Source: an uncultured Kordiimonas sp. (GTDB lineage Bacteria; Pseudomonadota; Alphaproteobacteria; Sphingomonadales; Kordiimonadaceae). Taken from it: 64,000 nt of DNA. The notes beneath the pieces are model-generated. The model searched no databases and had not been told where the DNA came from. It was given only the letters and a program-made list of their open reading frames with translations. Shown here in pieces: positions 19,658 through 44,215 of this stretch. Every line of letters starts with the position of its first letter. The first letter of the stretch is position 1. The position numbers were made by a program, and so were the translations under genes. Where the stretch lies: NCBI GenBank assembly GCA_947503575.1, contig CANNDZ010000001.1:1054001-1118000 (forward strand). Reading direction: 5' to 3'.

Positions 19658-19972
19658 GTGACTAATGATCAAAGAAAACAATCCCGGCGTATCCCGAAAG
19701 AGCTTGTTAACGTGGTTGCGGAACGCGAAGCAAAAGGATTGCTGAGAAAAGCCACAGCGGTTGAAGACGACCTGTTCTTTCCAATTGAATATTTGGGGAT
19801 CACCGGTGCAGGTATGAGTTTTTTGGCGATACCGCTTGACAAAATACCAGATGAAGCAGAAGCGCCCATGGCAATACCGGCTGTATACCTAGTATTACCA
19901 TTTGACGCTCATGCCGCATACACTCGCTTTATGGAAGCGGAGCATCTCACCAGTACAACTGAAGAAGGTTAG
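19658..19972 (+). CDS. Hypothetical protein, 104 aa
   Basis: A 104-residue soluble protein starting at GTG 19658. It is basic at the N-terminus (DQRKQSRRIPKEL) and acidic later (DKIPDEAEAP). It converges with, and overlaps by four bases, the AHL synthase stop. No family is recognised. Its position between the receptor-like gene and luxI suggests a quorum-sensing accessory, without direct evidence. Confidence 0.45.
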   Translation: MTNDQRKQSRRIPKELVNVVAEREAKGLLRKATAVEDDLFFPIEYLGITGAGMSFLAIPLDKIPDEAEAPMAIPAVYLVLPFDAHAAYTRFMEAEHLTSTTEEG

Positions 19973-20847
19973 CTACTGCCAAATTGTGCACCAACTGGCT
20001 GCAGGTCTGGAGTGAATAGCGATCGGGAACTGCTTGCCTCGGTGATACTCTCTAACAACAGACACTCAATGTTCGATAGAGCGGACGATACCTTGTTAGG
20101 GTCCATCGAGCCAGCGTCTGCAATATACCGCGTGAGAGGTTGAACCAGCTCAGGTTTATTTTGTATAATCTTGGCAAGCAATCGTGTTTCTTCCGCAACA
20201 AAATTGTGCTGCTTGTGGGTAAGGTCATCCTCGCCCGGCAGCACAACAGAGTGTGACCAGAAATTGACCATATGCCTGTGTCGTTCTACCATCTCGGTGG
20301 TGAGGTTGATAGACACAGCGACACATTCACCATTTTCGTACCTTTGTGGCAAGCCCATGGGCGTGTAATCCCATTTAAAGGCTTCCATCATACGCAGAAA
20401 CCCAGTGTCCATTACAACAAACAAGCCCTTGACCCCACTCATTTGAGCATAGTCCAGCATACCCAGAATAAGGTGTCGCTTCACGTCATGCCCATCCGGG
20501 GCAATTGCCTTGTTATCCATCATATAGTATCGCGTGATCTCCCAAATGTTGGGATCGTTTGGAATATCCATATTGCTTGCCAAAAAAGAGAAATGATCAA
20601 ACAAAAGTGTGCTGCAGTCTGAAGGAACAAGCCTGACGCCGCCCTGCAGTTCACCTGTGTCAGATATGGCAAGTAACCAGGTAGCAAGGGAATTGTCATA
20701 TTCATCAATTTCCAGCTTAAGGGGGCTTTCAAGCTCGGACCATTGTCTTTGCTCGACATATATTTGGTATCTTTGGCGATGCATCTCCTCTAGGTACGCT
20801 GCGAACTTCAGACGATTGGTCTGATTTACTACATATATTTTGCACAT
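19969..20847 (-). CDS. Acyl-homoserine-lactone synthase (LuxI family)
   Basis: A 292-residue LuxI-type autoinducer synthase. The residues required in the family are present: R26 and W36 in the RQRYQIYVEQRQW segment, D48 and D51 in EIDEYD, R in GGVRLVPS (near 71), phenylalanine in LFDHFSF, and E/R in IWEITR. It would make an N-acyl-homoserine lactone from SAM and an acyl carrier. The position after W36 usually filled by phenylalanine is shifted to tyrosine. The C-terminus (about residues 205-292) is an extra helical segment not found in ordinary 200-220-residue LuxI proteins. ATG 20847 has AGGAGG upstream. A lux-box-like palindrome lies 56 bases further up, suggesting autoinduction. Confidence 0.88.
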   Translation of the reverse strand: MCKIYVVNQTNRLKFAAYLEEMHRQRYQIYVEQRQWSELESPLKLEIDEYDNSLATWLLAISDTGELQGGVRLVPSDCSTLLFDHFSFLASNMDIPNDPNIWEITRYYMMDNKAIAPDGHDVKRHLILGMLDYAQMSGVKGLFVVMDTGFLRMMEAFKWDYTPMGLPQRYENGECVAVSINLTTEMVERHRHMVNFWSHSVVLPGEDDLTHKQHNFVAEETRLLAKIIQNKPELVQPLTRYIADAGSMDPNKVSSALSNIECLLLESITEASSSRSLFTPDLQPVGAQFGSS

Positions 20848-20903
20848 AGAATCCTCCTGGTGCTGATGAGAAGCCAAGCTTAACGGAGACACGGCGAATT
20901 AAA

Positions 20904-20923
20904 AACTAGCCGGGCGGCTAGTT
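20904..20923. promoter_or_regulatory. lux-box-like operator upstream of the AHL synthase gene
   Basis: AACTAGCC-GGGC-GGCTAGTT is a perfect inverted repeat of two 8-base arms around a 4-base spacer, 20 bases in total, the length and symmetry of LuxR-type binding sites. It lies between the luxR stop (20991) and the luxI start (20847), 56 bases before the latter. The arm sequence differs from the Vibrio consensus, as is usual between species. Confidence 0.65.
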
Positions 20924-20990
20924 GGTACAGCCCATAGGGGTATTCAGTGGCAAAGTAATATATGTCTGGTTGTGATGGATAGTTGCAGCG

Positions 20991-21737
20991 TTAGAAAGGT
21001 AGTAAGCCCCTATCTTTTGCGGCCTTGACAACTTCATGACGGTTGGGGACGTCAAAATACTCGATTAGGTTGCCAATATGATATTTGACACCACCCAATG
21101 ATAGGCCGGTTATTGTCGCTATTTCGTGATTTGTTTTACCCCTGTTAACCCACGTAAGAATGGTTCGTTCTTGGGGTTTAAGAGGGCGACCAACATGGCG
21201 AAATTCGTCATGGCCATAAATTTCGGTTGCGCGCTGATAGGCTCTATTAGCCATAAGCTGAATGGCCCCCTTGACTTGATCTTGCGCTCTGCGGGAGGCC
21301 TGATGAAAGTCTCCGAAATGCTCGCCAGCAACGGTAACTGTTGCAAATTCGTTCATAGGTCCATGGAGAGGAATGACAAGTCCTTCGCGAAGCCCAAAGT
21401 TTTTTGGTTCCTCCATAACCATCCGCTCTGCATCCGATAACTCAAGCTGATCGATGATATCTTTCCAAAAGAAGGGATAGCGTGTCCCGTTTGCGTGCCG
21501 GGGCGCTATATCCTCTATGAAAAGGTGATGCTTCATGTAAAAGTCGAACCACCTGTGTTCGCTCACAAACAACTCAGTTGGATTTGTCGGTCCACCGGGC
21601 TCTCGTAAGCGGCCACACATTACAAAATCGGCTCCAACGCTCTCAAGGTGAGATAAAAACAGCGCCTTAAGCTCTTCTATCGAGCGAGCCTCTTGGGATG
21701 CCTCCAGAAAGTTGAATGCAGTCTTCTCAATTGACAT
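20991..21737 (-). CDS. LuxR-family AHL-responsive transcription regulator
   Basis: A 248-residue protein with an N-terminal autoinducer-binding domain (about 1-165; WFDFYMKHHLFIEDIAPRHA contains the aromatic/aspartate ligand residues, and GLREGLVIPLHGP follows) and a C-terminal LuxR helix-turn-helix (about 180-245; PQERTILTWVNRGKTNHEIA, GGVKYHIGNLIEYF). Start at ATG 21737, with AGAGGTAAC upstream, rather than 21800. It is encoded directly upstream of the synthase on the same strand, the standard luxR-luxI pair, and probably acts at the palindrome at 20904. Confidence 0.88.
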   Translation of the reverse strand: MSIEKTAFNFLEASQEARSIEELKALFLSHLESVGADFVMCGRLREPGGPTNPTELFVSEHRWFDFYMKHHLFIEDIAPRHANGTRYPFFWKDIIDQLELSDAERMVMEEPKNFGLREGLVIPLHGPMNEFATVTVAGEHFGDFHQASRRAQDQVKGAIQLMANRAYQRATEIYGHDEFRHVGRPLKPQERTILTWVNRGKTNHEIATITGLSLGGVKYHIGNLIEYFDVPNRHEVVKAAKDRGLLPF

Positions 21738-21884
21738 GTTACCTCTAACAGTGAACCCGGAACAGAAATACCTATTCTGCACCCTTAGTATTAAGCACAT
21801 AATTTGTTGATTTTACCAAATCGTGGGACACAAAAATAATACATTTTACTCGTTTTTTAAACACGAAGTTGCATTATACTAGCT

Positions 21885-22700
21885 TTGAGAGCAAATCATG
21901 GTGCAGTGAACGTGAAACAAATCGAAGTTGATAAGGGTTATGCTGGCAGCAGTTTTTTGAGCAGCGTAGTCACGGAGCAAACCGACAAGATTTATGATAG
22001 CCAAAACAGGCAGGATTTAGTTGATATCGTTGAAACTGTCATGGATCACTCGGGGATCATAACGGTTCTTGGGGGAGCAATAGGAGCTGCCGGTCCGCAG
22101 TATATGCGCGGCAGCATTATTATCGATAGGTCTGGCCAGCAGCGAGAGGATGGAGCGCTGTGGTTGATGCACTTGCGTGCCAACGCCATGCTCAATCAGG
22201 ACGCTACCGTTGATTTCGCAACAAAAACCGAAGAACCCTACACATGGGCCGAGGTCATTGGTTCTTTATCGAGAAAACACCCCGGCAGAATTATATTCAA
22301 TGAAGCTAAACATTGGGGCCTTGGTGATGGACTATTTATACCATCCCCTGAGTACGGAAATAAAAGAGGCATGGTTTCGTTGCTCGGGCCGAAGGGCATG
22401 CTCAAAGGTTGGAGCGTAACAGAATACAGACGCATCCTGACGTTTTTCCGAACGATTCTATGGAAAGCTGAGCGTTTATACAAAAGGCAAGACATTAATC
22501 CTAAACCAATGTTGACCGCGCGGGAGAGCGTTGTGATACGGTTTCTGATGGAAGCCAGAGATATAAGCTACATCGCCGAAAAAACTGGCGTAACACCGGA
22601 TACCGTTCAAAAACGCATTAGCCGCATTATGGAAAAAGTCGGCGTCACCAGTCGTTTGGCAATTGTTGTAAAATGTTTCAACAAAGGCTGGCATTTTTAG
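21885..22700 (+). CDS. Second LuxR-family regulator
   Basis: A 271-residue (from TTG 21885; GTG 21906 or 21912 also possible) LuxR-like protein, divergent from the first. The N-terminal part (about 20-195) resembles an autoinducer-binding domain with DGLFIPSPEYGNKRGMVSL. The C-terminal part (about 205-270; TARESVVIRFLMEARDISYI, VTPDTVQKRISRIMEKVGV) is a clear LuxR helix-turn-helix. It stands before the peptide-export genes and may be their regulator. Ligand is unknown; an AHL is plausible because of the adjacent synthase. Confidence 0.78.
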   Translation: MRANHGAVNVKQIEVDKGYAGSSFLSSVVTEQTDKIYDSQNRQDLVDIVETVMDHSGIITVLGGAIGAAGPQYMRGSIIIDRSGQQREDGALWLMHLRANAMLNQDATVDFATKTEEPYTWAEVIGSLSRKHPGRIIFNEAKHWGLGDGLFIPSPEYGNKRGMVSLLGPKGMLKGWSVTEYRRILTFFRTILWKAERLYKRQDINPKPMLTARESVVIRFLMEARDISYIAEKTGVTPDTVQKRISRIMEKVGVTSRLAIVVKCFNKGWHF

Positions 22701-22813
22701 CTATCAAAGAGCGAGAACTGTTGGAACGGCTTATTTATGCTTGTACCGGAAGCCGCGATCGTCCTCAGATGAAATCAAAAAAAACCGATAAAAATCAATT
22801 TTATGTCGATTTT

Positions 22814-22827
22814 TCCTGAGTTCAGGA
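22814..22827. promoter_or_regulatory. Small inverted repeat upstream of the export genes
   Basis: TCCTGA-GT-TCAGGA, 6-base arms with a 2-base centre, lies 96 bases before the ATG at 22924. It could be an operator for the export/peptide operon. It does not match the 20-base palindrome at 20904, so regulation by the same LuxR is not shown. Confidence 0.3.
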
Positions 22828-22923
22828 ATTGCTAAATCATCATTATCCACTGACTATTGGCTACGCAGAAGAGGGTCACGAACCATCTGCTACTAAACAG
22901 CACGTGTATGACCGGGGGGTAGT

Positions 22924-23192
22924 ATGAATTTCGATCTGTTGGCGCTGGATAAAGAAATAGACGCGCAACCTGAACGTAAGGGGGCTGGTTTGCTAACACA
23001 GCTCGAGAACTTAGGCGTCTTTGCCTCAACAGGGACGCTACAGAGTGTTTGGCCAAGTATCTTCACGCCACTGAGCCTCTCCCAGAAGATATTGGCTGTT
23101 TTATCATCAAGAATGATAATGCCTGCTGGCATGGCTGCATCTTGAAATACCTTCCAGAGGGTCCTCGTGGAAAAATGAACAGCAAAAATTAG
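22924..23192 (+). pseudogene. Small gene with apparent frameshift at a G run, before the export adaptor
   Basis: The first frame begins MNFDLLALDKEIDAQPERK at ATG 22924 with GGGGGGT upstream. Directly after, at a run of five G (about 22979-22984), the protein-like signal moves to another frame: WFANTARELRRLCLNRDAT, then ECLAKYLHATEPLPEDIGCF and ILKYLPEGPRGKMNSKN, ending at TAG 23190-23192. The original frame continues to 23145 with less natural composition. Explanations are a real mutation, programmed slippage or a base-count error in the G run. No family is recognised. It ends 17 bases before the adaptor gene and may be an accessory of the export system. Confidence 0.45.
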
Positions 23193-23209
23193 TTACAAGA
23201 GTACTTTCA

Positions 23210-24448
23210 ATGTTTCGAATTGAAGCGGTCAAAGCACAGCAAAAAAAACTACATGGTGACGTGTTTCTCACACAGCCGGTTTCGTCTACCATCATTACGT
23301 TTGTTATCGCAGCAATGGTAGGCCTTGCGGCCATTCTGCTCACAACTGGTTCCTATGCTCGAAGCGAACATGTAGCAGGGTACATCGTGCCATCAAAAGG
23401 CCTGATTAAAATACAGGCAAGCCAGTTTGGGACGCTCGACACATTGCATGTTCGAGAAGGAGACAAGGTGATCTCTGGGCAGGTGCTCGCTGACATAACC
23501 ATTGCTCACGGTACGTTTGATGGACGGTCATTTGTTGAGAAAAGTCTGGATGCGCTCACGCGCCAAAGGAATGTTATAGAAACGCAAATTACACTGGAAA
23601 AGAACCAACTCGAAACAGAACTTGCGAAGCTATCCTCGGAACAGGCAGAAGCAGCTCTGCGTGCAACATCTCTAGAAAACAGAATTGTCCTGCAAAAACA
23701 GATAACTGCATCTGCAGAAGCTGCTTACAAAGATGTTCAAGGCATACTAGAACAAGGCTATATCAGCAAAGCCGAGTCTGAGCGCCGTCTTCAAACTTGG
23801 CTTTCGCAGCAAGCAAATGAGCAGCTCAGGCGACACGAACTTGTTGAGGCGCAAGCCCTCCTAGAGCAATTGGCCATTCGATTGAGCCAACTACCTAACG
23901 AGAGTAAGCAGCGCGTAGCACGTCTTGAAACCCAGTTGTCAGAACTGGATAGTCGGACGGCAGATCAGGAAGGCAGACAAGCTTACTCTATTATTGCGCC
24001 AGTGAGCGGCTATGTGGCTTCGATCAATGTCGGTGGTGAGGGTAGAACGGTACAAGCCGGACAGCCTTTACTGGCTATTTTGCCTGAAGGCAGCGATTTG
24101 GAAGCAGAATTATATGTACCTAGCCGTGCTGCGGGATTCATCAAATCAGGACAGGAGGTTCGCCTTCTTTACGATGCGTTTCCCTATCAGCGGTTTGGGT
24201 CTTATCCGGCAAAAATCACATATGTTACAGAAACCATTCTTACGCCCAACGAAGCGTTAGCACCGTTCGAGATCAAAGAACCTGTATACCGGGTCACGGC
24301 AGCCATTGATGAAACAGAAATTACAGCGAGAGGAGCAAAAGTAACTCTGCAAAGCGGTATGACGCTGAAGGCTAATATTGTGCTGGAGCGCCGCAGTTTC
24401 CTTGATTGGTTGTTGGAGCCCTTAAGGGCCATTGGAGGCAGAGCATAG
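23210..24448 (+). CDS. HlyD/CvaA-family periplasmic adaptor for peptide export
   Basis: A 412-residue membrane-fusion protein: one transmembrane helix near residues 25-45 (STIITFVIAAMVGLAAILL), then a biotinyl-lipoyl-like half domain, a long coiled-coil hairpin (about 110-245), and the second half (SIIAPVSGYVASINVGGEGR) with a C-terminal barrel. It resembles the adaptors that pair with peptidase-containing ABC exporters of colicin V and other double-glycine peptides. ATG 23210. The stop overlaps the exporter's ribosome-binding region, so the two are co-translated. It would span the periplasm to an outer-membrane channel; none is encoded here. Confidence 0.88.
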   Translation: MFRIEAVKAQQKKLHGDVFLTQPVSSTIITFVIAAMVGLAAILLTTGSYARSEHVAGYIVPSKGLIKIQASQFGTLDTLHVREGDKVISGQVLADITIAHGTFDGRSFVEKSLDALTRQRNVIETQITLEKNQLETELAKLSSEQAEAALRATSLENRIVLQKQITASAEAAYKDVQGILEQGYISKAESERRLQTWLSQQANEQLRRHELVEAQALLEQLAIRLSQLPNESKQRVARLETQLSELDSRTADQEGRQAYSIIAPVSGYVASINVGGEGRTVQAGQPLLAILPEGSDLEAELYVPSRAAGFIKSGQEVRLLYDAFPYQRFGSYPAKITYVTETILTPNEALAPFEIKEPVYRVTAAIDETEITARGAKVTLQSGMTLKANIVLERRSFLDWLLEPLRAIGGRA

Positions 24449-24449
24449 T

Positions 24450-26696
24450 ATGAGCTTGTCTGCCCTCAACCTTTCTGGCGGTTACCGCCTACCCATGATC
24501 CGCCAAAACGAAGCTGCTGAGTGCGGTCTTGCCTCGCTAGCGATGGTTGCTGGCTATTTTGGCCTTAAAACTGATCTTACTACCCTTCGTCGTAAATATG
24601 CGACTAGTCTGCAAGGCATGTCACTGAAGCATGTCATTGCTGTTGCAACCAAGATGCAATTTGGCACTCGCCCTATCAAAGTACCGCTCAATTTGATCGG
24701 ACAAGTAAAGTTACCCGCAATTCTGCATTGGGATATGAACCACTTTGTTGTCTTGAAGGATTGCAGCAAGAACAAGTTCACGATCCACGACCCAGCCCTC
24801 GGCGAACGCACGTACAGCGAAGATGAATTCTCAAAACATTTTACTGGGGTTGCACTTGAGCTAACACCAACAGAAACATTTGAGAAGCGCAGCGAAAAAG
24901 TATCACTAAAACTATCCGAGCTATGGGGACGAATGTTCGGTTTAAAGCGCAATCTTGTTCAAGTGTTAGTTCTTTCTCTTGTGCTCCAATTGTTTGTGCT
25001 AGCTAGCCCCTTCTATTTGCAAATAGCAGTCGATGAGGTTCTTACCAAGTTCGACACAGACCTGCTGCTGGTGCTGGCGCTTGGTTTTACAGGTTTCACA
25101 CTGATCAACTTCATTTCACAAACCATCCGTGGATACGTACTCTTGTATTTCGGGAGCATGATGTCATACCAGATGGTTGGTAATTTATTCCGTCATTTGA
25201 TCAGGCTACCCATCGGCTTTTTTGAGAAACGTCATATCGGTGACATTGTTTCTCGCTTTGGCTCAATGGAACCAATCAAACAGATGCTTACCGAAGGTCT
25301 GATTGCTAGCTTGATTGATGGCATTATGGCCATAACGACACTTGTGTTGATGTTTGTCTACAGCCCCAATCTTACAGCGATAGCATTAGGTGCTTGGCTT
25401 TTGTATTTTGCCGTACGCATGGCATTTTACCGTCCGTTCAGAGCAGCACAAGAAGACGCTATCGTTAGCCATGCTAAAGAACAAACCACCTTCATTGAAA
25501 CAGTCCGGGGCATTACCAGTCTCAAATTATTTGGGGGTGAAGGAGAGCGCGAAAACCTGTGGAAAAACAAATATGCCGACGTAATCAACACCAACGCCCG
25601 AACAGAGAAACTCGGTATTTGGTTCCAAAGTGCAAACGCAGGTATCTTCGGCTTAGAGCATGTTATCCTGATCTACATTGCCGTAAAAATGGTGCTGGCA
25701 GGCAGCTTCTCTATCGGCATGATTTTCGCCTTCATGGCGTATAAACGGAACTTTACTGAAAAAGCATCCGCTCTCGTCGAGAAAGCCATCGAGTTTCGCA
25801 TGTTAAGCTTGCACCTTGAGCGTATCGCCGACATCGCCCATACCGAGCAGGAAGAGCAAAGCGCTGATCAACACAGTATGATTGAGGCAGAGCCAATAAC
25901 AGGTGCGATAACACTGAAAGATATTCGTTACCGCTACTCAGACAATACACCGGAAGTGCTGGCAGGTATCGATCTTGAAATTCAGCCGGGACAATCGGTT
26001 GCCATAGTGGGGCAATCTGGATGTGGCAAAACCACGCTACTCAAGATTATGACAGGGTTGTTTAAGCCCACCGCTGGTCAGGTATTGATAGGCGGTACGC
26101 CTCTTTCTCAATACGGCCTCACACAATTTCGCAAGCAAATCGGTGTTGTCATGCAGGAAGATGACCTGTTTGCCGGGTCTATTGCTGAAAACATATCCTT
26201 CTTCGATCCTGATGCAGATATGCAAAGAGTAATCTCCGCATCAAATGCTGCCATGATCCACAATGAAATTATGGTCATGCCAATGAAATACGAAAGCCTA
26301 GTTGGTGACATGGGGTCAGCACTGTCGGGCGGCCAGAAGCAGCGCATCATGCTGGCGCGGGCTCTATATCGTCAACCCAAAATTCTGTTCATGGACGAAG
26401 GCACCGCGCACCTTGATGTTGCCACCGAACGCATGGTGAACCAGTCAATAGCATTGCTTGGTATAACGCGGATCATTATTGCTCATCGGCCTGAAACCAT
26501 AAAGGTGACTGACATTGTCTTGAATATGCGAGTTGGTAAATTGTCGGCGATCAACTCGATTGAGTCTCCCAGTTCTGCGGAAGGAAATACGCAAAGGCAC
26601 TCTTTAAACGATAGAGCCCAGAAGGATCATATTGGTGAATTGCGGATAGCCGAAAATGAACTCAAAACCGCCGGAATCAATGCGCCAACATTTTAG
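24450..26696 (+). CDS. Peptidase-containing ABC transporter (C39 domain) for double-glycine peptides
   Basis: A 748-residue bifunctional exporter. The N-terminal C39 cysteine peptidase has Q19, C25 (AECGLASLAM), a histidine in HWDMNHFVVL and aspartate in IHDPA. The transmembrane domain has about six helices (about 160-440). The ATPase has Walker A GQSGCGKTT, signature LSGGQKQR and Walker B ILFMDEGTAHLD. It cleaves leaders after a GG pair and exports the peptide core, which fits the three precursors downstream. ATG 24450 with GGAGG at 24434-24438 is preferred to TTG 24432. The last 60 residues after the ATPase are a non-conserved tail. Confidence 0.93.
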   Translation: MSLSALNLSGGYRLPMIRQNEAAECGLASLAMVAGYFGLKTDLTTLRRKYATSLQGMSLKHVIAVATKMQFGTRPIKVPLNLIGQVKLPAILHWDMNHFVVLKDCSKNKFTIHDPALGERTYSEDEFSKHFTGVALELTPTETFEKRSEKVSLKLSELWGRMFGLKRNLVQVLVLSLVLQLFVLASPFYLQIAVDEVLTKFDTDLLLVLALGFTGFTLINFISQTIRGYVLLYFGSMMSYQMVGNLFRHLIRLPIGFFEKRHIGDIVSRFGSMEPIKQMLTEGLIASLIDGIMAITTLVLMFVYSPNLTAIALGAWLLYFAVRMAFYRPFRAAQEDAIVSHAKEQTTFIETVRGITSLKLFGGEGERENLWKNKYADVINTNARTEKLGIWFQSANAGIFGLEHVILIYIAVKMVLAGSFSIGMIFAFMAYKRNFTEKASALVEKAIEFRMLSLHLERIADIAHTEQEEQSADQHSMIEAEPITGAITLKDIRYRYSDNTPEVLAGIDLEIQPGQSVAIVGQSGCGKTTLLKIMTGLFKPTAGQVLIGGTPLSQYGLTQFRKQIGVVMQEDDLFAGSIAENISFFDPDADMQRVISASNAAMIHNEIMVMPMKYESLVGDMGSALSGGQKQRIMLARALYRQPKILFMDEGTAHLDVATERMVNQSIALLGITRIIIAHRPETIKVTDIVLNMRVGKLSAINSIESPSSAEGNTQRHSLNDRAQKDHIGELRIAENELKTAGINAPTF

Positions 26697-36497: not shown

Positions 36498-37109
36498 TTG
36501 AAGACTAAAGTTAAATACCAACAGAAAAGGGGGATCGAGCGCCGAGAAGACCTGAGGGCTCTGGCGCTAGGCATCATTGGTCAATTGGGGGTTGCTGAAT
36601 TCTCCATGGGTATGTTGGCCAAAAAGGCCAATATTTCTAATGGGTCTTTGTACCGTTTCTGGCCAAGCAAGACAGAGCTTATTGCATCGGTGGCAGAAGT
36701 GGAATTTGCACCTTTGAAAGCAAAATACCTAAGCGCTATGTCTGGGTGTGAAAGCGTAGAAGATGTAAGGTTGGCAGTCCGTAACCATTTTATATATTTT
36801 CATGACACTATAAGAGAAAGGCCTGAATTAATTGATCTATGGAATGGATTGAGAGCAGACAAAGTACTTCAGGATTTAGACGAAAAAGATGCAATTGAGA
36901 ATGCGAGAATTATGTGCGAAAAAATTGCACCCTTTTGTTCGAACATCTCTTTTGATGATTTGTGGGAAGTATGTATCATGTTGATTTACATTGGCAGTGC
37001 AACTGCCCGCAGAGCCGCATCTCTTCCTGTTGTTAAAGCAAATAAAATGATAGATCAAATGTTTGAGAGTGCTTGGGAAGTTATAGAAAAGGAAATAGAT
37101 AAATCTTGA
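36498..37109 (+). CDS. TetR-family transcription regulator (A)
   Basis: A 203-residue regulator from TTG 36498. The N-terminal helix-turn-helix (about 20-65) reads FSMGMLAKKANISNGSLYRF and WPSKTELIASV. The ligand-binding part carries ELIDLWNGLRADKVLQDLDE, nearly shared with TetR B (ALIDLWNGFKADKKLQQVDK). The two therefore are paralogues, facing each other 46 bases apart. Together they probably control the redox operon starting at 37932. The inducer is unknown. Confidence 0.82.
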   Translation: MKTKVKYQQKRGIERREDLRALALGIIGQLGVAEFSMGMLAKKANISNGSLYRFWPSKTELIASVAEVEFAPLKAKYLSAMSGCESVEDVRLAVRNHFIYFHDTIRERPELIDLWNGLRADKVLQDLDEKDAIENARIMCEKIAPFCSNISFDDLWEVCIMLIYIGSATARRAASLPVVKANKMIDQMFESAWEVIEKEIDKS

Positions 37110-37154
37110 GCATTAGCGACAAGGGGTCGTCAAAAAGATATTGCGCTATTTTCC

Positions 37155-37784
37155 TTAAAGAGACTTTTCCATATTTTTCCAAGCCATTTCAAACATTGTT
37201 TTAAGCAGCTTTTTGATGTTTTTAGATTTACTACGCGTTGCTCTTTTCGCCACAGTGCTTGCTAAGTCCATCAATAAAATACAAGCATTAATCAACTGAC
37301 CTTGATCTGGCGGTGATCTATACTTCAAGATTGCCGAAGCAAGAAGTTGTGCGTTATGCTGCGTGTCTTCTTTGTCCACTTGCTGAAGTTTTTTGTCAGC
37401 TTTAAAACCATTCCAAAGGTCTATCAACGCTGGCGTGGCCTTAATGGTTTCGTAAAATGCGATAAAATTTTCGTACGCAGCAATTTTTATTTCTTCATAA
37501 TTTTGGCAGCGATCATACTTTTCTGCGGCTTTAATGTTTGTGCTGATGAAGCTGTTTGAAACAAGTGCAAGCAGAATATCTGATTTAGATGAGTAATACT
37601 GATAAAGAGTTCCAGCTGGAACATTTGAACGCCTAGATAGCTCGCTCATGCTAAAATTTGTCAGGCCTTTCTCCCCAATTATTACTAGGCAATGTTCGAG
37701 AATCAGTTTCCGACGAAAGTCACCGCGTTTTTGGTGATACCCTGTATTTTTTCTTTTTTGCATACCGTCATTATAGATAGTCAC
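37155..37784 (-). CDS. TetR-family transcription regulator (B)
   Basis: A 209-residue paralogue of TetR A with the helix-turn-helix FSMSELSRRSNVPAGTLYQY and YSSKSDILLALVSN. The frame starts at ATG 37784 or at ATG 37763 (MQKRKN). It is divergent from DUF1622 and the rest of the Rieske operon, with a perfect 24-base palindrome in the 147-base gap. It is the likeliest direct repressor of that operon and of itself. Confidence 0.85.
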   Translation of the reverse strand: MTIYNDGMQKRKNTGYHQKRGDFRRKLILEHCLVIIGEKGLTNFSMSELSRRSNVPAGTLYQYYSSKSDILLALVSNSFISTNIKAAEKYDRCQNYEEIKIAAYENFIAFYETIKATPALIDLWNGFKADKKLQQVDKEDTQHNAQLLASAILKYRSPPDQGQLINACILLMDLASTVAKRATRSKSKNIKKLLKTMFEMAWKNMEKSL

Positions 37785-37931: not shown

Positions 37932-38297
37932 ATGCATGAATTGGTCGAAGCTTTAGAGACCTTGGCAGAAGCAATCGATGTTATTGGTGTTATTATCGTT
38001 TTATACGGTTTTGTCCTTGGGCTTGTGGGGCTAATCAAGGTTGAATTTCGTAGCTGGATAGGCGCTGATTTGATCGCGGAGGGTCATCAGAAAATCCGCT
38101 TAAAACTAGGTACTTATATCCTTCTTGGTATCGAGTTCATGATTGCGTCCGACATTATTGCCACTGTTTTATCTAAGTCGATTGATAGCCTTATTTTCGT
38201 TGCCAGTTTGGTGCTTATCAGAACCGCCATTAGCTTTTTTCTCGGCAAAGAGCTTGGTGAGTTGGCTACTGAGCCTCAAGCCGCTCAAAAAACGTGA
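37932..38297 (+). CDS. DUF1622 family small membrane protein
   Basis: A 121-residue protein with three predicted membrane helices (about 18-40, 62-82, 86-106) and the DUF1622 pattern (GLIKVEFRSWIGADLI ... RLKLGTYILLGIEFMIASDI). The family has no proven function. First gene of the Rieske operon, 32 bases before the next; ATG 37932 with GAAGGT upstream. It may anchor or scaffold the redox proteins. Confidence 0.75.
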   Translation: MHELVEALETLAEAIDVIGVIIVLYGFVLGLVGLIKVEFRSWIGADLIAEGHQKIRLKLGTYILLGIEFMIASDIIATVLSKSIDSLIFVASLVLIRTAISFFLGKELGELATEPQAAQKT

Positions 38298-38329
38298 TTT
38301 TACCAAAGTTTGATTAGAGAGTTTCCGTC

Positions 38330-39937
38330 ATGAATAAATTTAAAATTGCTGCCTCAAGTGAGTTGGTGGACCGCAAGCCACTGGCAAAGTTGGTTGCCAA
38401 TGTAGACTTGGTAGTTACCAAATTTGATAACCAAATATCAGCTTTATACGGTCGATGTCTTCATCGCGGTGCCTTGATGGCGGACGGTCATGTAGAGGGC
38501 GACAACTTGATATGCGGCCTGCATAACTGGGATTACCGTTTAGACACGGGAATATCAGAATATAACAACAAGGAAGCCTTACATAAATTTAACTGTTGGG
38601 TGGAGGGTGATGATGTATATGTTGATGAAGACGAAGTAGCCGCATGGCACGCCAATAACCCTCAGCCATTTCAGCGAGAAAATTACCAAGGGCAATATGC
38701 GGATACGCACCCACAACCTGAAGAGCCACATGTTGGAATTATCCAACAATATGCAAGGGACGGATTGTCCAAGGTTGGGCATCACGGTGTAAGTGTTGCA
38801 ATGGGGGTTTCGAGGGAGAAGCTACCTGTTTGGGAGGATATCCAGTTTGTAACAGCCCAACTGGCTAAGCTTCCGCTGCTTGATGATGAAGAGGTTGAAA
38901 CCTCTGTTGTCATTGGTCCCAAAGCTAAGAAGCCACTTTCGCTTGATATTCCCCTTTTTGTTTCCGATATGAGTTTTGGCGCGCTCTCGCAAGAGGCTAA
39001 AATATCATTGGCAAGAGGGGCTGATCTCGCTGGAACAGGCATTTGTTCTGGTGAAGGGGGCATGCTGCCAGAAGAACAGGGCGCTAATGATCGGTACTTC
39101 TATGAACTTGCGTCTGGACGATTTGGCTATTCAGATGAAAAAGTGAAAAAGTGCCAAGCGTTTCACTTTAAAGGTGGGCAAGGTGCCAAAACAGGAACTG
39201 GTGGTCATTTGCCGGGTGAGAAGGTTGTTGGAAAAATTGCTGAAGTGCGCGAGCTGGAAGAGGGCCAGGCCGCTATTTCGCCGCCGCGCTTTCCGGACTG
39301 GACCAGCCTTTCCCAAATTAGGGATTTCGGGGCCCATATAAGAGAAGTGACGGGCGGAATACCCATTGGATACAAATTATCTGCTCAGCACATTGAGAAG
39401 GATATAGATGCTGCTCTAGAGGTTGGGGTAGATTACATTATTCTTGATGGCAGAGGTGGGGGTACGGGTTCTGCACCTGAAATTTTTAGAGATAATATTT
39501 CTGTGCCTACCATTCCTGCATTGGCTAGAGCTCGTCGGCACTTGGATGCTTCGGGAAGTGGCGGCGTTACCTTAGTTATAACCGGTGGTCTAAGGTTGCC
39601 GGGCGACTTTGCCAAAGCAATGGCGCTCGGTGCAGATGCCATAGCGGTTTCAAATGCGGCATTACAAGCAATTGGTTGCTTGGGAATGAGGGCTTGTCAA
39701 ACAAATAACTGCCCCGTTGGAATTGCCACGCAAAGAGATGACCTTAGGCGGCGCCTTGTAGTTGAAAAGTCAGCCAAACAACTCGCAAATTACTTTCAAG
39801 CCTCAACAGACTTAATGAAAGTTTTGGCTAGAGCGTGCGGACATAAGAGGTTGAGCGACTTCTCAATTGAAGATCTAACGACTTGGAAGCGTGATATGGC
39901 TGATTTAACAGGCGTTAATTTCGGTGGTTTAGGCTAA
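38330..39937 (+). CDS. Rieske ferredoxin-glutamate synthase-like FMN protein fusion
   Basis: A 535-residue fusion. Residues 1-105 are a Rieske domain with ligands C43-x-H45 and C62-x2-H65 (RCLHRG, CGLHNWDY). From about 150 on it is the FMN-binding glutamate synthase domain: FVSDMSFGALSQEAKISLAR, FKGGQGAKTGTGGHLPGEKV, LDGRGGGTGSAPE, and the three cysteines CLGMRACQTNNC (C-x5-C-x4-C) that hold a 3Fe-4S cluster in GltS. The glutaminase domain of true glutamate synthase is absent. It could pass electrons between a ferredoxin-type centre, a 3Fe-4S cluster and FMN; the substrate is unknown and need not be glutamate. Soluble. Confidence 0.88.
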   Translation: MNKFKIAASSELVDRKPLAKLVANVDLVVTKFDNQISALYGRCLHRGALMADGHVEGDNLICGLHNWDYRLDTGISEYNNKEALHKFNCWVEGDDVYVDEDEVAAWHANNPQPFQRENYQGQYADTHPQPEEPHVGIIQQYARDGLSKVGHHGVSVAMGVSREKLPVWEDIQFVTAQLAKLPLLDDEEVETSVVIGPKAKKPLSLDIPLFVSDMSFGALSQEAKISLARGADLAGTGICSGEGGMLPEEQGANDRYFYELASGRFGYSDEKVKKCQAFHFKGGQGAKTGTGGHLPGEKVVGKIAEVRELEEGQAAISPPRFPDWTSLSQIRDFGAHIREVTGGIPIGYKLSAQHIEKDIDAALEVGVDYIILDGRGGGTGSAPEIFRDNISVPTIPALARARRHLDASGSGGVTLVITGGLRLPGDFAKAMALGADAIAVSNAALQAIGCLGMRACQTNNCPVGIATQRDDLRRRLVVEKSAKQLANYFQASTDLMKVLARACGHKRLSDFSIEDLTTWKRDMADLTGVNFGGLG

Positions 39938-39942
39938 CTTTA

Positions 39943-40152
39943 ATGATCTCACTTCTCATATATTTGGGCTTAATTTACCTACTAATCGGTATAGTTTTCG
40001 CGGCATACTTTGTCTCTAAAGGCTGTGTGGTTATTGACCATGCAGCGGAAAACTCGGGCATGGTTTTTAGAGGGCTGCTTTTCCCCGCTAGTGTCCTGCT
40101 TTGGCCGCTTCTGTTAAGTAAGGTAAGAAGCGCGATGCGGGGCAAAAAATGA
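39943..40152 (+). CDS. Small membrane protein, 69 aa
   Basis: A 69-residue protein with two membrane helices (LIYLGLIYLLIGIVFAAYFV and LLFPASVLLWPLLL) and a basic tail. It starts five bases after the Rieske-FMN gene and overlaps the next start (ATGA). Similar tiny proteins accompany ferric-reductase-like or cytochrome subunits, suggesting an accessory subunit of the membrane protein at 40298. Confidence 0.7.
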   Translation: MISLLIYLGLIYLLIGIVFAAYFVSKGCVVIDHAAENSGMVFRGLLFPASVLLWPLLLSKVRSAMRGKK

Positions 40153-40301
40153 AACGATCACACCGAAAAACACATCTACTTGTATGGCTGCTGCTAGCTC
40201 CGGGGCTATTTTTTTTGCTTTGGTTGGCAGTCACAGAAAGACAAGACACGCCTGTTCAGAATGAGTGGCCCAATATCTCTGATGAGGAGGTGTTGCCATG
40301 A
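40149..40301 (+). CDS. Small membrane protein, 50 aa
   Basis: A 50-residue frame from ATG 40149 to TGA 40301, overlapping the previous stop and the next start (both ATGA). It begins MKRSHRKTHL, has one membrane helix (LLLAPGLFFLLWLAV) and an acidic, cytoplasmic or periplasmic tail (NEWPNISDEEVLP). The double overlap makes it a convincing gene despite its length; it is likely translationally coupled to the ferric-reductase-like gene. Confidence 0.7.
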   Translation: MKRSHRKTHLLVWLLLAPGLFFLLWLAVTERQDTPVQNEWPNISDEEVLP

Positions 40302-41353
40302 GCCATGGTTATGTTCCCGTACAATGGAATTCAGACAAAAAGAAATACGATGTCGTATTGTGGATAGGCATAGTATTTTACATTGCGTGTTATACACTAT
40401 TCAACACCCTGCTAGTTGCTTCTGACGAGGTCATATCGCTGCCGATAGTATTGATACGCGCTTTGGGAACGTGCGCATTTATTATGCTGAATATCATTAT
40501 ATCCATTGGCCCACTGGCTAGGATAAATTCGAAATTTTTACCTCTGGTTTACAACCGACGACATTTTGGCGTTTCAATGTTTGTAATAGCCTTTTTCCAC
40601 GGAGTAATTGTAGTCTTTTGGTACCACGGTTTTGGTGTGATATCGCCGGCTGAATCTTTGTTTTTCTCAAACAGTAATTATACATCTCTGTCCCAATTCC
40701 CATTCGAGACGCTTGGTATTTTTGCTTTATGTATTTTCCTGTTTATGGCGGCCACAAGTCATGATTACTGGAATGCAAATTTGGGAGGCCCACTTTGGAA
40801 AGCAATCCATATGGGGGTATATTTTGCATACGCTTTAATAGTCAGTCATATCGCACTGGGTGCTATGCAGTCGCCGTCAACCGGGATATTGCCCGAGATG
40901 GCGCTCATGAGTGTAGTTTGGGTTTCAAGCCTACATTTATTTACTGCCTACAAAGAAATCTACAATCAGCGGAACCATAAGCATTCTAGTTGGGTAAAGG
41001 TTGGGCGTTGGCAAGATATCGAAAACAATCGTGCTATCGTTGTATCGGTCAGTCATGACGAGCGCGTAGCGATTTTCAGGTATGAAGGAAATAAATTAGC
41101 AGCAGTTTCAAATGTTTGTCAGCACCAAAATGGCCCTCTTGGTGAGGGGAAAGTAATTGATGGCTGTATTACTTGCCCGTGGCATGGTTTTCAATATCTT
41201 CCTGAAAACGGGGCTTCCCCTGCACCGTTTACCGAGAAAATATCAACTTACAAACTAAAGTTGGTTGGAGATGAAGTTTACCTGGACCCTTACCCGCATC
41301 CGCCGGGTACTAAAAGACCCATTACAATTATAGAGCAGGTGTCCAATGGATAA
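40298..41353 (+). CDS. Ferric-reductase-like heme membrane protein fused to a Rieske domain
   Basis: A 351-residue protein. Residues about 15-225 contain six to seven membrane helices of the ferric-reductase/MsrQ-like type, with paired histidines (RRHFGVSMFVIAFFHG, KAIHMGVYFAYALIVSHIAL) that would ligate b-type hemes. Residues about 232-340 are a cytosolic Rieske domain with C274-x-H276 and C293-x2-H296 (CQHQNGPLGEG, CPWHGF). It starts inside the previous stop, with GAGGAGG upstream. It could move electrons between the quinone pool or heme and the soluble Rieske partners. Fusion of these two domains is rare. Confidence 0.87.
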   Translation: MSHGYVPVQWNSDKKKYDVVLWIGIVFYIACYTLFNTLLVASDEVISLPIVLIRALGTCAFIMLNIIISIGPLARINSKFLPLVYNRRHFGVSMFVIAFFHGVIVVFWYHGFGVISPAESLFFSNSNYTSLSQFPFETLGIFALCIFLFMAATSHDYWNANLGGPLWKAIHMGVYFAYALIVSHIALGAMQSPSTGILPEMALMSVVWVSSLHLFTAYKEIYNQRNHKHSSWVKVGRWQDIENNRAIVVSVSHDERVAIFRYEGNKLAAVSNVCQHQNGPLGEGKVIDGCITCPWHGFQYLPENGASPAPFTEKISTYKLKLVGDEVYLDPYPHPPGTKRPITIIEQVSNG

Positions 41354-42182
41354 AAAGTCAGATGATTTTTATGTTGGGTACATTGGAAAATCGCAACAAC
41401 TGCGAAACTTTTATCAAACGCTTGTGCCATTAATTGTTTTGTTAGTTCTTGGTGCTTTATTCTGGATATTATCTAGTCAAGAAAATTCAGCAGGTGGCTT
41501 TTGGGACGTTGACAGGCCAATTAAGCTAACAGGCAAACTTGTTACCAAGCCTTACCCTACACTTATAACGCAACACCAAAGCGAACATGGGTTTCGTTCA
41601 GTTATGATTGTAGGTGAAGGGAAAGATGCTGCTAGTGCCTGGGCAAAGCCTTTTGATGCAATGCACGTTTCTATTACCGGAAATTTAATTCATGCAGGCG
41701 GCTGGGAATTATTGGAGATATCCTCTCCTGATTCAATTGAAGTAACTCAATCAAGTTCAACAAGTGTATTACCGGTAAAACAACCTCTCTCACAGGTTTC
41801 AATTAAAGGTGAGATTGTTGACTCTAAGTGTTTTCTTGGCGTCATGCGACCGGGAGAAGGAAAGGTCCATAAGGCATGTGCTGGTCTTTGTTTGATGGGC
41901 GGCATGCCACCTATTCTTGTTGTTAAAAACGACAGTGGTCAACGGGCTGGCTATTTACTTACAACACATGAAAACACAAGCGCTTCCCGCATCGTAGTGC
42001 CCTATGTTGCCGAACCTGTGGAGGTCATGGGTAATGTCGAGAGATACGGTGACCTTTTACGATTGAAGATACTGCCAAACAGTATTCGTCGGCTCTCATC
42101 TGAAGAGAAAAATAATTATGGTGAATTGTTAACGTACGACGCTGATGTGCCGTTTATATGCCAAGCACCGTTGCCTGGTTAG
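41346..42182 (+). CDS. Membrane-anchored protein with a Cys/His cluster, function unknown
   Basis: A 278-residue protein with one N-terminal membrane helix (about 25-45, LIVLLVLGALFWILSS) and a large external part. Its central motif DSKCFLGVMRPGEGKVHKAC then AGLCLMGG (three cysteines and a histidine, C-x-GK-x-HK-x-C-x3-C) could bind a metal, heme or Fe-S cluster. The two flanking regions look like OB-fold/beta units (IKLTGKLVTKPYPTL and VVPYVAEPVEVMGNVERYG). It overlaps the upstream Rieske protein by eight bases, so it belongs to the same complex or pathway. I do not recognise the family. Confidence 0.7.
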   Translation: MDKKSDDFYVGYIGKSQQLRNFYQTLVPLIVLLVLGALFWILSSQENSAGGFWDVDRPIKLTGKLVTKPYPTLITQHQSEHGFRSVMIVGEGKDAASAWAKPFDAMHVSITGNLIHAGGWELLEISSPDSIEVTQSSSTSVLPVKQPLSQVSIKGEIVDSKCFLGVMRPGEGKVHKACAGLCLMGGMPPILVVKNDSGQRAGYLLTTHENTSASRIVVPYVAEPVEVMGNVERYGDLLRLKILPNSIRRLSSEEKNNYGELLTYDADVPFICQAPLPG

Positions 42183-42223
42183 ATTTGCAACGTACCAATA
42201 TGAATTGGTTGAAGGAGGCCAAA

Positions 42224-44215
42224 TTGACAAAAGAAATAAAACTAGAATGGATCAAAGTTGGCCATAAGTCTGATTTGCAGGAAGGACGAGTAAAAACAGT
42301 TACTGCGGGCGTGCGGTCAATCGCACTCGTTCATTTCGATGGCCAGTTTACGGCAATGAATAATCATTGTCCTCATCAAGGTGGGCCGCTTGGTGAAGGG
42401 TCGATTGAAAAAGGGGAGGGCGGTAAATGCTGGATACGCTGTCCTTGGCATGGCTGGGACTTTGACCCATTAACAGGAAAGCCCCCAGGCGGGCATCAAG
42501 ACTCTGGTCAAGAGATGTTCCCGGTCGATGTGCGAGATGACGGCGGCATTTATATTGGTGTTGAACCTGAGCCTGAACATGACCCCACTATTTCCGATAT
42601 AATGGTGGAAACTATGGTAAACTGGGGCGTTACACATGTCTTCGGAATGGTGGGCCATTCTAACTTAGGGCTGGCGGATGCCTTACGAAAGGCACAGGTT
42701 GCCGGGAAACTAGAATTTATTGGTGTACGGCATGAAGGCGCTGCGGCATTTGCTGCTTCAGGTTATGCAAAGTTGACAGGAAAGCCGGCGGCATGCTTTG
42801 CGATAGCTGGCCCTGGCTCTACAAATCTTTTGACGGGTCTTTGGGATGCGAAGATGGATCGCGCGCCAATCCTTGCCCTCAATGGCCAAGTTGATACTCA
42901 AGTTTTAGGCCCTGGTGCCTTTCAGGAGATAAATTTAATAGCAGCGTTTGATGCAGTTTCTGACTTCGCCCAAATTGTTTTACCTACATCCAAACCGGCT
43001 GAATTGATGAATTTAGCATTGAAAAACGCTATTGTAAAAAGAGGCGTTTCGCAATTGGTGTTCCCCGATGAAGTGCAGTCGTTGAAAGCAAAAGAAAACC
43101 AACTTGTCTCTTCGCCTGATGGCCGGTTGTCAGACACAAAAATATCCCCGCCTCCTGAAGAAATTGCCAAAGCTATTATTAAGCTTTGTAGAGCGGAGAG
43201 GCCTATGATCATAGTAGGGTATGGGGCGCGCCAAGATATGGCCCAAATCGTTGCTTTTGCCGAGAAAATGGGGTGCCCTGTTGCCATGACATTTAAGGCA
43301 AAAGGCCAATTGCATGATGACCACCCTAACTGTGCAGGTGTTTTGGGGCGCTCGGGCACACCAATTGCCAGTTGGTTTATGAATGAATGCGATTTGTTGA
43401 TTGTATTAGGTGCGTCATTTTCAAATCATACCGGTATTGAAAAATCCAAACAAATCATACAGGTAGACTCTGACAGAATGACACTTGGCAAGACGCACCC
43501 TGTAGACCTTGCTATCTGGGGCGACATCGACTCGACCATGACCCTAATAAATACAGGGTTACCCAAATCAGTTTCTCAAGAAAGCCAAGTTCCAGAAATC
43601 AAAGCCCGTCGCGATATATGGATAAATGAAAAAACTCGGCGCGCTAATGATGACAACGGCAAAGGTATTAACTCTGCTTTTGTATTCAAAACCTTGTCCG
43701 AGCTGGTGCCGAGTAAAACGGCGATTGCTGTCGATGTAGGTAACAATACATACAGCTTTGGCAGGTACTTTGAAACAAAGCCTAATCAAAGAATAATGAT
43801 GTCTGGTTACCTCGGCTCAATTGGTTTTTCGTTTCCCGCGGCTATCGGCGCCTGGAGCGCAACGCAAGTTGACCCTAACTTTAAAGACTGGAGCGTTGTT
43901 TCTATCTCAGGTGATGGAGGCTTCGGTCAATATCTTGCAGATTTTACGACTGCGGTTAAGTACGGCATTAATATTACTCACATATTATTAAATAATTCCG
44001 AGCTTGGAAAGATTTCGAAGGAACAAATCTCGGGCGAATGGAATGTTTGGCAAACGACATTACATAATCCAAGTTTTGCTGCTTACGCAAAAATATGTGG
44101 CGGAAAAGGCTGGAAAGTGACGAAGCCTGAACAACTGGAAGAGGCAGTCAGGGCAGCTCTTAAATATGAAGGCCCGTCGATCGTAGAAATAATAACAGAC
44201 GCCACGCTTATATAG
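42224..44215 (+). CDS. Rieske ferredoxin-ThDP (acetolactate synthase/pyruvate oxidase-like) fusion enzyme
   Basis: A 663-residue fusion. Residues 1-110 are Rieske with C49-x-H51 and C73-x2-H76 (CPHQGGPLGEG, CPWHGWD). The rest is a thiamine-diphosphate enzyme of the acetolactate synthase/oxalyl-CoA decarboxylase superfamily: catalytic glutamate E171 in RHEGAAAF, central domain (about 300-440), and the cofactor motif GDGGFGQYL (G563) ... LLNN. I prefer TTG 42224 because GGAGG (42214-42218) lies five bases before it; in-frame ATGs at 42158 and 42200 are worse placed. It may decarboxylate a 2-oxo acid and send electrons through its own Fe-S centre. Substrate unknown. Confidence 0.87.
   Translation: MTKEIKLEWIKVGHKSDLQEGRVKTVTAGVRSIALVHFDGQFTAMNNHCPHQGGPLGEGSIEKGEGGKCWIRCPWHGWDFDPLTGKPPGGHQDSGQEMFPVDVRDDGGIYIGVEPEPEHDPTISDIMVETMVNWGVTHVFGMVGHSNLGLADALRKAQVAGKLEFIGVRHEGAAAFAASGYAKLTGKPAACFAIAGPGSTNLLTGLWDAKMDRAPILALNGQVDTQVLGPGAFQEINLIAAFDAVSDFAQIVLPTSKPAELMNLALKNAIVKRGVSQLVFPDEVQSLKAKENQLVSSPDGRLSDTKISPPPEEIAKAIIKLCRAERPMIIVGYGARQDMAQIVAFAEKMGCPVAMTFKAKGQLHDDHPNCAGVLGRSGTPIASWFMNECDLLIVLGASFSNHTGIEKSKQIIQVDSDRMTLGKTHPVDLAIWGDIDSTMTLINTGLPKSVSQESQVPEIKARRDIWINEKTRRANDDNGKGINSAFVFKTLSELVPSKTAIAVDVGNNTYSFGRYFETKPNQRIMMSGYLGSIGFSFPAAIGAWSATQVDPNFKDWSVVSISGDGGFGQYLADFTTAVKYGINITHILLNNSELGKISKEQISGEWNVWQTTLHNPSFAAYAKICGGKGWKVTKPEQLEEAVRAALKYEGPSIVEIITDATLI

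Follow-up and report, generated by a model that had tools for sequence, protein, structure and literature searches.

Seven genes and three Rieske domains

The window analysed here, a 64,000-nucleotide stretch of the genome of an uncultured Kordiimonas sp., holds at positions 37932-44215 seven tightly packed genes on the forward strand, three of which encode different proteins that each carry a Rieske [2Fe-2S] domain; this set, and the electron chain that its products may form, are the subject of this account. Gene 1 (37932..38297) encodes an accessory DUF1622 membrane protein (PF07784, 70.5 bits) with about three transmembrane segments (TMs) by hydropathy. Gene 2 (38330..39937) joins an N-terminal Rieske domain to a stand-alone glutamate synthase FMN/3Fe-4S core (PF00355 and PF01645), and is followed by genes for two small membrane proteins, gene 3 (39943..40152) with two predicted TMs and gene 4 (40149..40301) with one, as judged from hydropathy and alignment. 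Gene 5 (40298..41353) encodes a heme protein with a six-TM ferric reductase domain and a C-terminal Rieske domain (PF01794 and PF00355), gene 6 (41346..42182) a membrane-anchored protein whose main domain is predicted to be periplasmic (38-row alignment and TM prediction), and gene 7 (42158..44215) an N-terminal Rieske domain followed by a pyruvate-oxidase-type thiamine diphosphate (ThDP) enzyme without the C-terminal tail of pyruvate oxidase (POX), an assignment drawn from Pfam, NCBIfam, PDB and alignments. Genes 3 and 4 overlap by 4 bases, genes 4 and 5 by 4, and genes 5 and 6 by 8.

A first-pass annotation, made from the letters of the window alone, had described this set and had placed Rieske domains at the N-terminus of two proteins and at the C-terminus of a third. 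All seven open reading frames (ORFs) lie at these coordinates on one strand, and Pfam confirms the three Rieske domains and their placement with scores over the curated cut-offs for gene 2 (Rieske 47.6 bits, Glu_synthase 300.5 bits), gene 5 (Ferric_reduct 49.1 bits, Rieske 57.7 bits) and gene 7 (Rieske 65.2 bits, TPP_enzyme_N/M/C 113-118 bits each). Genes 3, 4 and 6 match no Pfam family over cut-off, and gene 6 has no match in Pfam at E 0.1 or in NCBIfam at E 0.01. A genome-wide search with PF00355 (3.6 Mb, 10 contigs) found five Rieske domains, and the two outside the cluster lie in a 203-aa frame, which we take to resemble a bc1 Rieske protein, and in a 141-aa frame. Because three of the five fall within the cluster, a chance origin of the three fusions is rejected; the Pfam scores, the conservation of the ligands, the rarity of Rieske domains and the recurrence in other loci together rule out chance or an annotation artefact.

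The Rieske ligands are invariant for gene 7 (C71, H73, C95 and H98) in a 14-sequence alignment and for gene 5 (C274, H276, C293 and H296) in 39 sequences, while those of gene 2 (C43, H45, C62 and H65) are kept in 60/60 full-length rows, 55 of them distinct, a set picked for matches that extend into the Rieske domain; the count without such a choice is the tally of 77 homologues given below. The motif is present in 53/53 gene 5 entries (46 distinct) and in 116/121 gene 7 entries (104 distinct), the remaining five being a single gene at a contig edge that counts double (L037/L051) and three distantly related paralogues of the ThDP enzyme (L021, L055 and L056). The expectation that the ligands would be conserved in homologues thus holds for the alignments of all three genes, with the qualification that some gene 2 homologues have a CDGSH domain instead. 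Rieske clusters of the bc1 type have extra cysteines, which the three domains of the window lack. A quick tree built from 43 short rows, which came with long-branch warnings, groups the Rieske domains by gene, one group being weak (SH-aLRT 71), and shows no exchange of these domains between the genes. Because the lineages group by gene, they look like old, separate fusions, within what a short domain with weak inner support can suggest.

The ThDP enzyme of gene 7

The top NCBIfam models for gene 7 are of the pyruvate oxidase and pyruvate dehydrogenase types, with PRK08611 at 409.9 bits, below the equivalog cut-off of 742 bits; acetolactate synthase (286.7 bits) and sulfoacetaldehyde acetyltransferase (224.5 bits) fall short of this score and were rejected. 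The closest solved relative is E. coli PoxB (3eya, E 4.2e-65). The ThDP fold is marked by a catalytic glutamate and a GDG...NN motif. E193 of gene 7 is invariant in the 14 sequences, the GDGG and NN residues align with those of POX, and RHE, FQE, GDGG..NN, EQ and much of the middle domain are common to gene 7 and two plasmid-borne POX; FAD is a probable further cofactor.

Gene 7 has 100 residues from its DGG motif to the end, as against 133 and 142 in the two POX, and 117/117 gene 7 entries with at least 45% identity and uncut by a contig edge end no more than 101 residues past the motif. The C-terminal tail of POX is a lipid/lid segment, and in PoxB it docks on the membrane, where it reaches quinone. 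Because this tail is absent from gene 7 and a Rieske domain is present, the architecture would mean an electron exit different from that of PoxB. There is weak evidence that the true start of gene 7 may be 42200 (ATG) instead of 42158, a possibility considered because annotated haloarchaeal homologues are without the N-terminal stretch. Elsewhere in the same genome (L021, G000:C2:685000-697000, near 690665) a second glutamate-synthase-like gene stands directly beside an acetolactate-synthase-type ThDP gene (PRK08322, 844 bits), both without Rieske domains, and the pairing of a ThDP enzyme with a glutamate synthase core may extend beyond the Rieske-linked system.

The glutamate synthase core of gene 2

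The 3Fe-4S cysteines of gene 2 (C450, C456 and C461, CX5CX4C) are present in 58/58 rows that reach that far, and Pfam finds no glutaminase or GXGXG domain or subunit in any of the seven genes. Among 77 homologues of the core with at least 55% identity, 61 have a Rieske domain, 13 a CDGSH domain and 3 neither, the last comprising one frameshifted gene, one with an in-frame stop and one without an Fe-S domain (L013). Two stretches of zf-CDGSH apiece were confirmed by Pfam in the four proteins scanned (L012, L086, L102 and L007). The CDGSH-form cores are 64-69% identical to gene 2 and constitute its nearest group in a quick tree, where the Rieske and CDGSH states need one change whose direction depends on the root, and at L086 and L102 the CDGSH form adjoins a Rieske-ThDP gene. 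The N-terminus of L014, a 44% relative, looks like rubredoxin but scores under the Pfam cut-off (23.0 versus 26.5). That more than one kind of small redox domain can stand at this position suggests that the N-terminal slot of the core is an electron port. Passages of PMC3174974 already describe CDGSH proteins with a build like that of gene 2 as type 5 CISD, and such proteins are also treated in part of PMC5859297. On a Pseudoalteromonas plasmid (L013, 7887-10028) the glutamate synthase core is followed by a C-terminal FGE-sulfatase (formylglycine-enzyme-like) domain.

The membrane proteins

Hydropathy gives gene 5 six TMs, and its heme histidines (H89, H101, H171 and H184) are invariant in 39 sequences, spaced by 12 in TM3 and by 13 in TM5. 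According to passages of PMC3591440, the four heme ligands of the ferric reductase domain superfamily lie in TM3 and TM5, with spacings of 14 and 13 in NOX2, and most short MsrQ-like forms keep two or three heme histidines; because the same passages name Rieske among the modules of the superfamily, the domain pairing of gene 5 is already known. Counts of lysine and arginine over the N-terminus and loops 1-5 (3/0/4/0/1/0, N-in/C-in) put both ends inside, and the Rieske domain of gene 5 is for this reason predicted to be cytosolic. In two genomes of one genus (Pfam run on one) a gene 5 homologue adjoins a fourth kind of Rieske fusion, to an NADPH-dependent FMN reductase (FMN_red; L168 6257-7381, L172 3362-4474), which was found in no other analysed locus. 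On two Rhizobium plasmids and in genome G200, the genes near gene 5 include one for a ThDP enzyme like acetolactate synthase, one for a CoA transferase and one for a TPR protein.

Gene 6 has an N-terminal TM after four lysine or arginine residues, and three cysteines and one histidine (C162, H175, C178 and C182) are invariant in its 38-row alignment. The two tiny membrane proteins of the first-pass annotation are separate ORFs in the window, but in the three loci compared genes 3 and 4 align with the two halves of one membrane protein of 121-124 aa.

Recurrence across genomes

A contig scan for relatives of gene 7 used two patterns, one of them a Rieske motif (CPWHGWD), and the presence of Rieske domains in gene 7 is therefore partly selected in the loci analysed, the best 80 of 564 confirmed relatives (one of the 80, L125, is absent from the gene 7 table). 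In the 51 well-covered loci, those with at least 6 kb either side of gene 7, gene 2 is present in 39 (two in the CDGSH form), gene 5 in 31 and gene 6 in 29, and genes 2, 5 and 6 all accompany gene 7 in 26, so that the three fusions do recur together. The presence of gene 6 tracks that of gene 5: among the well-covered loci, 29/31 that have gene 5 also have gene 6, as against 0/20 that lack gene 5. Over all 80 loci the count for gene 2 is 49, including two CDGSH forms (L086 and L102) and one distant protein (L099, 36%), and the simple ORF caller used overlooks genes in G+C-rich loci. DUF1622, which had been thought to complete the set, is present in the window but in only 4/80 loci, and is not a constant member.

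Most of the 80 loci come from Alphaproteobacteria (NCBI families Roseobacteraceae 14, Paracoccaceae 9, Stappiaceae 7 and Parvularculaceae 5); there are also Gammaproteobacteria, three Woeseiaceae among them, and, in addition, a single bin titled Thermoleophilia. The named strains Labrenzia sp. THAF82 and Roseibium denhamense JCM 10543 carry genes 2, 5, 6 and 7. Far from being confined to this genome, the fusions are found together in many Alphaproteobacteria, and recurrence in relatives, in these named loci and in the draw from the phylum described below rules out a local oddity.

A search of 59 genomes with gene 2 found the Rieske form in five besides the window, four of the window's genus (G003, G010, G014 and G015) and one of its order (G040), and the CDGSH form in G004, of the same genus. 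All five relatives have genes 3 to 7. In four of them gene 1 is also present and adjoins gene 7; it was unseen in the fifth, whose contig ends nearby. The tight packing on one strand that had led to the description of a single operon is real in the window, but in the five relatives the genes form two divergent units, [7-1] and [2-3-4-5-6]. The gene 2 homologue of G014 (L019 6613-8222) is divided over two frames, by sequencing error or decay. The cluster is also present in G307 and G153, of two more families, where genes 1 and 4 were unseen.

In a draw of 385 genomes from the class, the entire gene 7 protein as query matched in 15, gene 5 was found in 18 and gene 2 in 14, the gene 2 matches including the Rieske part in nine, starting from residue ~125 in four and from residue 95 in one (G400, left out of the Rieske tally). 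Gene 7 and Rieske gene 2 occur jointly in seven, where 0.35 would be expected (Fisher 9.5e-10, uncorrected for kinship like the other Fisher values here), and in six when the window genome is left out (Fisher 1.9e-8); gene 5 is present in 8/9 genomes with Rieske gene 2, and pairs of genes 7 and 2 beyond the window's family come from four families. Since genes 2, 5 and 7 lie on three different contigs in G180 and 17 to 64 kb apart in G200, their shared presence exceeds tight linkage. In a draw from the phylum, the ThDP part alone, a query that does not select for Rieske, matched 5/388 genomes, all five of which also have Rieske gene 2, and the four matches besides the window all carry the Rieske domain. 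Gene 2 matched 10/378 genomes in full from its first residues; the converse rule, that Rieske gene 2 implies the ThDP gene, looks untrue, and the two draws may differ in genomes.

Some of the genes are also found on plasmids. Three haloarchaeal plasmids carry homologues of gene 2 (59-61%) and gene 7 (56-57%) about 1.4, 4 and 17 kb apart, a Haloferax larsenii plasmid has a gene 7 homologue only, and a Mycobacteroides plasmid encodes a Rieske-ThDP protein 49% identical to gene 7. A search of viral contigs, with gene 2 as the sole query, gave no match.

One account of these patterns is that the three Rieske proteins are separate enzymes, their Rieske domains being independent inputs for unrelated ferredoxin reductases and their clustering a matter of shared regulation only. 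That genes 2, 5 and 7 are each also found without the others, and that their Rieske lineages look like distinct old fusions, would fit; yet pairwise co-occurrence persists without linkage, adjacency is conserved in many families and the pairing is kept in loci with the CDGSH form, and this account is judged quite improbable.

A possible electron export chain

Co-occurrence without linkage, the port swap of gene 2 and the four-histidine membrane protein support a shared electron chain among the three Rieske proteins. The first-pass annotation had proposed a chain from a 2-oxo acid through Rieske centres to an FMN enzyme and the membrane, or the reverse; of this, the shared chain gains support from the same evidence, and for its direction, which that annotation left open, we favour outward flow. 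Our preferred reading, to which we give a probability of roughly 0.45, is that the cluster encodes a chain exporting electrons from cytosol to periplasm, in which Rieske-tagged oxidases would feed a transmembrane heme exporter. The outward direction is proposed by analogy with NOX, FRE and MsrQ, and we infer the cofactors, the Rieske-to-Rieske transfer, the substrates and the role of gene 6. Also in favour of this reading are the kinship of gene 7 with pyruvate oxidase and its missing tail, the Rieske domain of gene 5 on the positive-inside side, the Rieske-FMN_red fusion that adjoins gene 5, the antiporter described below, and genes for an ECF sigma factor and a zf-HC2 anti-sigma factor, which occur jointly in 8/85 loci.

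In such a chain, the Rieske-ThDP protein would, as its family suggests, oxidatively decarboxylate a 2-oxo acid and pass the electrons by way of a probable FAD to its own Rieske cluster, and not to quinone or oxygen. Gene 2 would oxidise an amino acid or imino compound at FMN, with electrons leaving through the 3Fe-4S cluster to its Rieske domain, and the two reactions may be consecutive, an amino acid giving the 2-oxo acid that is then turned into a carboxylic acid. Both products would then dock on the predicted cytosolic Rieske domain of gene 5, which takes the place of the NADPH/FAD module of a NOX/FRE-like membrane domain and would hand the electrons to two stacked b-hemes, and from there they would reach the predicted periplasmic protein of gene 6, or quinone. 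The products of genes 3 and 4 would be small subunits, and a cation:proton antiporter, encoded in many of the loci, would remove protons and rebalance the charge left by electron export. A more general form of the reading, which we hold as a tentative possibility, is a modular hub in which the heme membrane protein takes electrons by Rieske-to-Rieske contacts from interchangeable Rieske-tagged enzymes, the plug being swappable with CDGSH in the flavin enzyme.

Several observations weigh against electron export by this set. Neither gene 5 nor gene 2 is nearby in 9/51 well-covered gene 7 loci, 8/15 class genomes with gene 7 are without a Rieske gene 2 match (one has a partial match), and 10/18 class genomes with gene 5 have neither gene 2 nor gene 7. 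Gene 5 was not found on the haloarchaeal plasmids with genes 2 and 7, its five plasmid records being all from Rhizobium. The distribution is patchy even inside the genus: of 18 genomes there, four have gene 2 in the Rieske form and one in the CDGSH form, and the other 13 lack a close match. The FAD of gene 7 is proposed from family resemblance, as are the substrates of this enzyme and of gene 2, and the antiporter fits the charge-balancing role loosely, gene 5 being present in 14/20 well-covered antiporter loci (Fisher 0.22).

The antiporter, a Na_H_Exchanger homologue (Pfam run on one) in 26/80 loci, lies on the same strand within 300 bp of a core gene in 23/26 and directly upstream of gene 2 in 21/26; all well-covered antiporter loci have gene 2 (20/20, Fisher 8.9e-4). 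A single orthologous antiporter throughout was rejected, since the three scanned best match K+/H+ type, a_cpa1 and CPA2 models in NCBIfam, none over cut-off. Halorarius has an antiporter from a different subfamily after gene 7, and the CPA2-type antiporter of Mycobacteroides lies ~3 kb from gene 7 on the other strand. We read the antiporter as a means of proton/cation balance, but because it is tied to gene 2 and not to gene 5, an osmolyte explanation stays alive. Here the chain would run reductively: oxidation of a 2-oxo acid by the Rieske-ThDP protein would, by Rieske-to-Rieske transfer, provide electrons for the gene 2 core, which would reductively aminate 2-oxoglutarate or a similar acid, gene 5 would be an optional valve, and glutamate as a compatible solute would explain both the antiporter and the bias towards marine and halophilic hosts, which include haloarchaea and genera that we take to be marine. 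Known glutamate synthases run reductively, and K281, Q284, K287 and R307 of gene 2, presumably the 2-oxoglutarate ligand positions of Azospirillum GltS, are the same in 60/60 rows. On the other side, the position that we take to be Gln978 of the Azospirillum enzyme is His293 in 60/60 rows, the set lacks a glutaminase domain, and genes 5 and 6 are left unexplained; reductive amination is on balance unlikely.

Envelope redox repair is a further explanation, in which an MsrQ-like gene 5 would pass electrons to gene 6, acting as a periplasmic reductase that would repair oxidised targets, with electrons supplied by genes 2 and 7 under stress control. The weak match of gene 5 to the MsrQ model (39.6 bits, cut-off 130) and the invariant cysteines and histidine of gene 6 point this way, as do genes for an ECF sigma factor and a zf-HC2 anti-sigma factor, both present in 8/85 loci, and merA, DsrE and rhodanese genes near the haloarchaeal loci. 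Such neighbours vary between lineages, however, no MsrP-type enzyme is encoded among the seven genes, and gene 5 has all four heme histidines where most short MsrQ-type forms are without the inner one, as passages of PMC3591440 describe. Repair of the envelope is accordingly doubtful as the function of the set, and electron export to the periplasm remains the reading that we prefer.

Neighbouring genes

Two paralogous TetR-family genes (34.5% identical) adjoin each other on opposite strands upstream of the cluster (36498-37784): one at 37155..37784 on the reverse strand (PF00440 and PF17928), divergent from gene 1 and likely the local regulator of the cluster, and a second at 36498..37109 on the forward strand. 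A scan for promoters and terminators gave nothing above the level of shuffles. In 13/85 loci a protein of ~280 aa, weakly like DUF5996, is encoded (e.g. L077 2553-3401), in several cases adjoining gene 7.

Farther away in the window, two very similar 342-aa ORFs for membrane transferase-like proteins (2082-3110 and 12525-13553), which presumably resemble MraY/WecA, flank recombinase-, methylase- and ParB-like ORFs, and the stretch between them could be a mobile insertion with a flanking duplication. Grouped at 19969-26696 are ORFs that we take to resemble an acyl-homoserine-lactone synthase, two LuxR-type regulators and a peptidase-ABC/HlyD exporter pair.

Comparison with known systems

The recognised parts of the cluster are members of known families; what seems new is their combination, together with the Rieske-ThDP enzyme. 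To our knowledge, this enzyme would be the first ThDP oxidase whose electrons go to a Rieske cluster. A search of the open-access literature found nothing on a Rieske-ThDP enzyme or on a system of three such fusions, in agreement with the earlier statement that no system with this layout had been described, although two of the building blocks are in print: the CDGSH form of gene 2, in passages of PMC3174974, and Rieske as a module of the ferric reductase domain superfamily, in PMC3591440. If the proposed chain is true, it would be a new coupling of 2-oxo acid decarboxylation and amino-acid chemistry to the membrane, relevant to relatives of Roseobacter and Stappia, to Woeseia and to haloarchaea; the glutamate synthase proteins with CDGSH or Rieske domains would gain a partner and hence a testable job, and Rieske domains would be seen as exchangeable ports beyond bc1 complexes or oxygenases.

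Gene 7 has its ThDP motifs and its best model and structure matches in common with the POX family (E. coli PoxB and Lactiplantibacillus pyruvate oxidase), from which it differs by its N-terminal Rieske domain and the loss of the C-terminal tail. With the ferric reductase domain superfamily (MsrQ/YedZ, NOX and FRE) gene 5 shares six TMs and the histidine pairs of TM3 and TM5. Whereas NOX and FRE carry C-terminal FAD/NADPH domains, gene 5 has a Rieske domain there, and its partners, unlike those of MsrQ/YedZ, NOX and FRE, are Rieske-tagged enzymes, gene 6 and small subunits; from MsrPQ the set is set apart by the low MsrQ score of gene 5 and the lack of MsrP. The FMN core and 3Fe-4S cysteines of gene 2 are those of GltS, the NADPH- or ferredoxin-dependent glutamate synthase (6s6s and 7mfm), but gene 2 lacks the glutaminase domain, has a Rieske domain added and presumably has one substrate residue changed, and no GltD-like gene is found among the seven. 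Similar in build, too, are the CDGSH type 5 proteins, in which, as passages of PMC3174974 describe, a CISD is fused to the FMN domain of glutamate synthase: the core is the same, and the port is CDGSH where that of gene 2 is Rieske.

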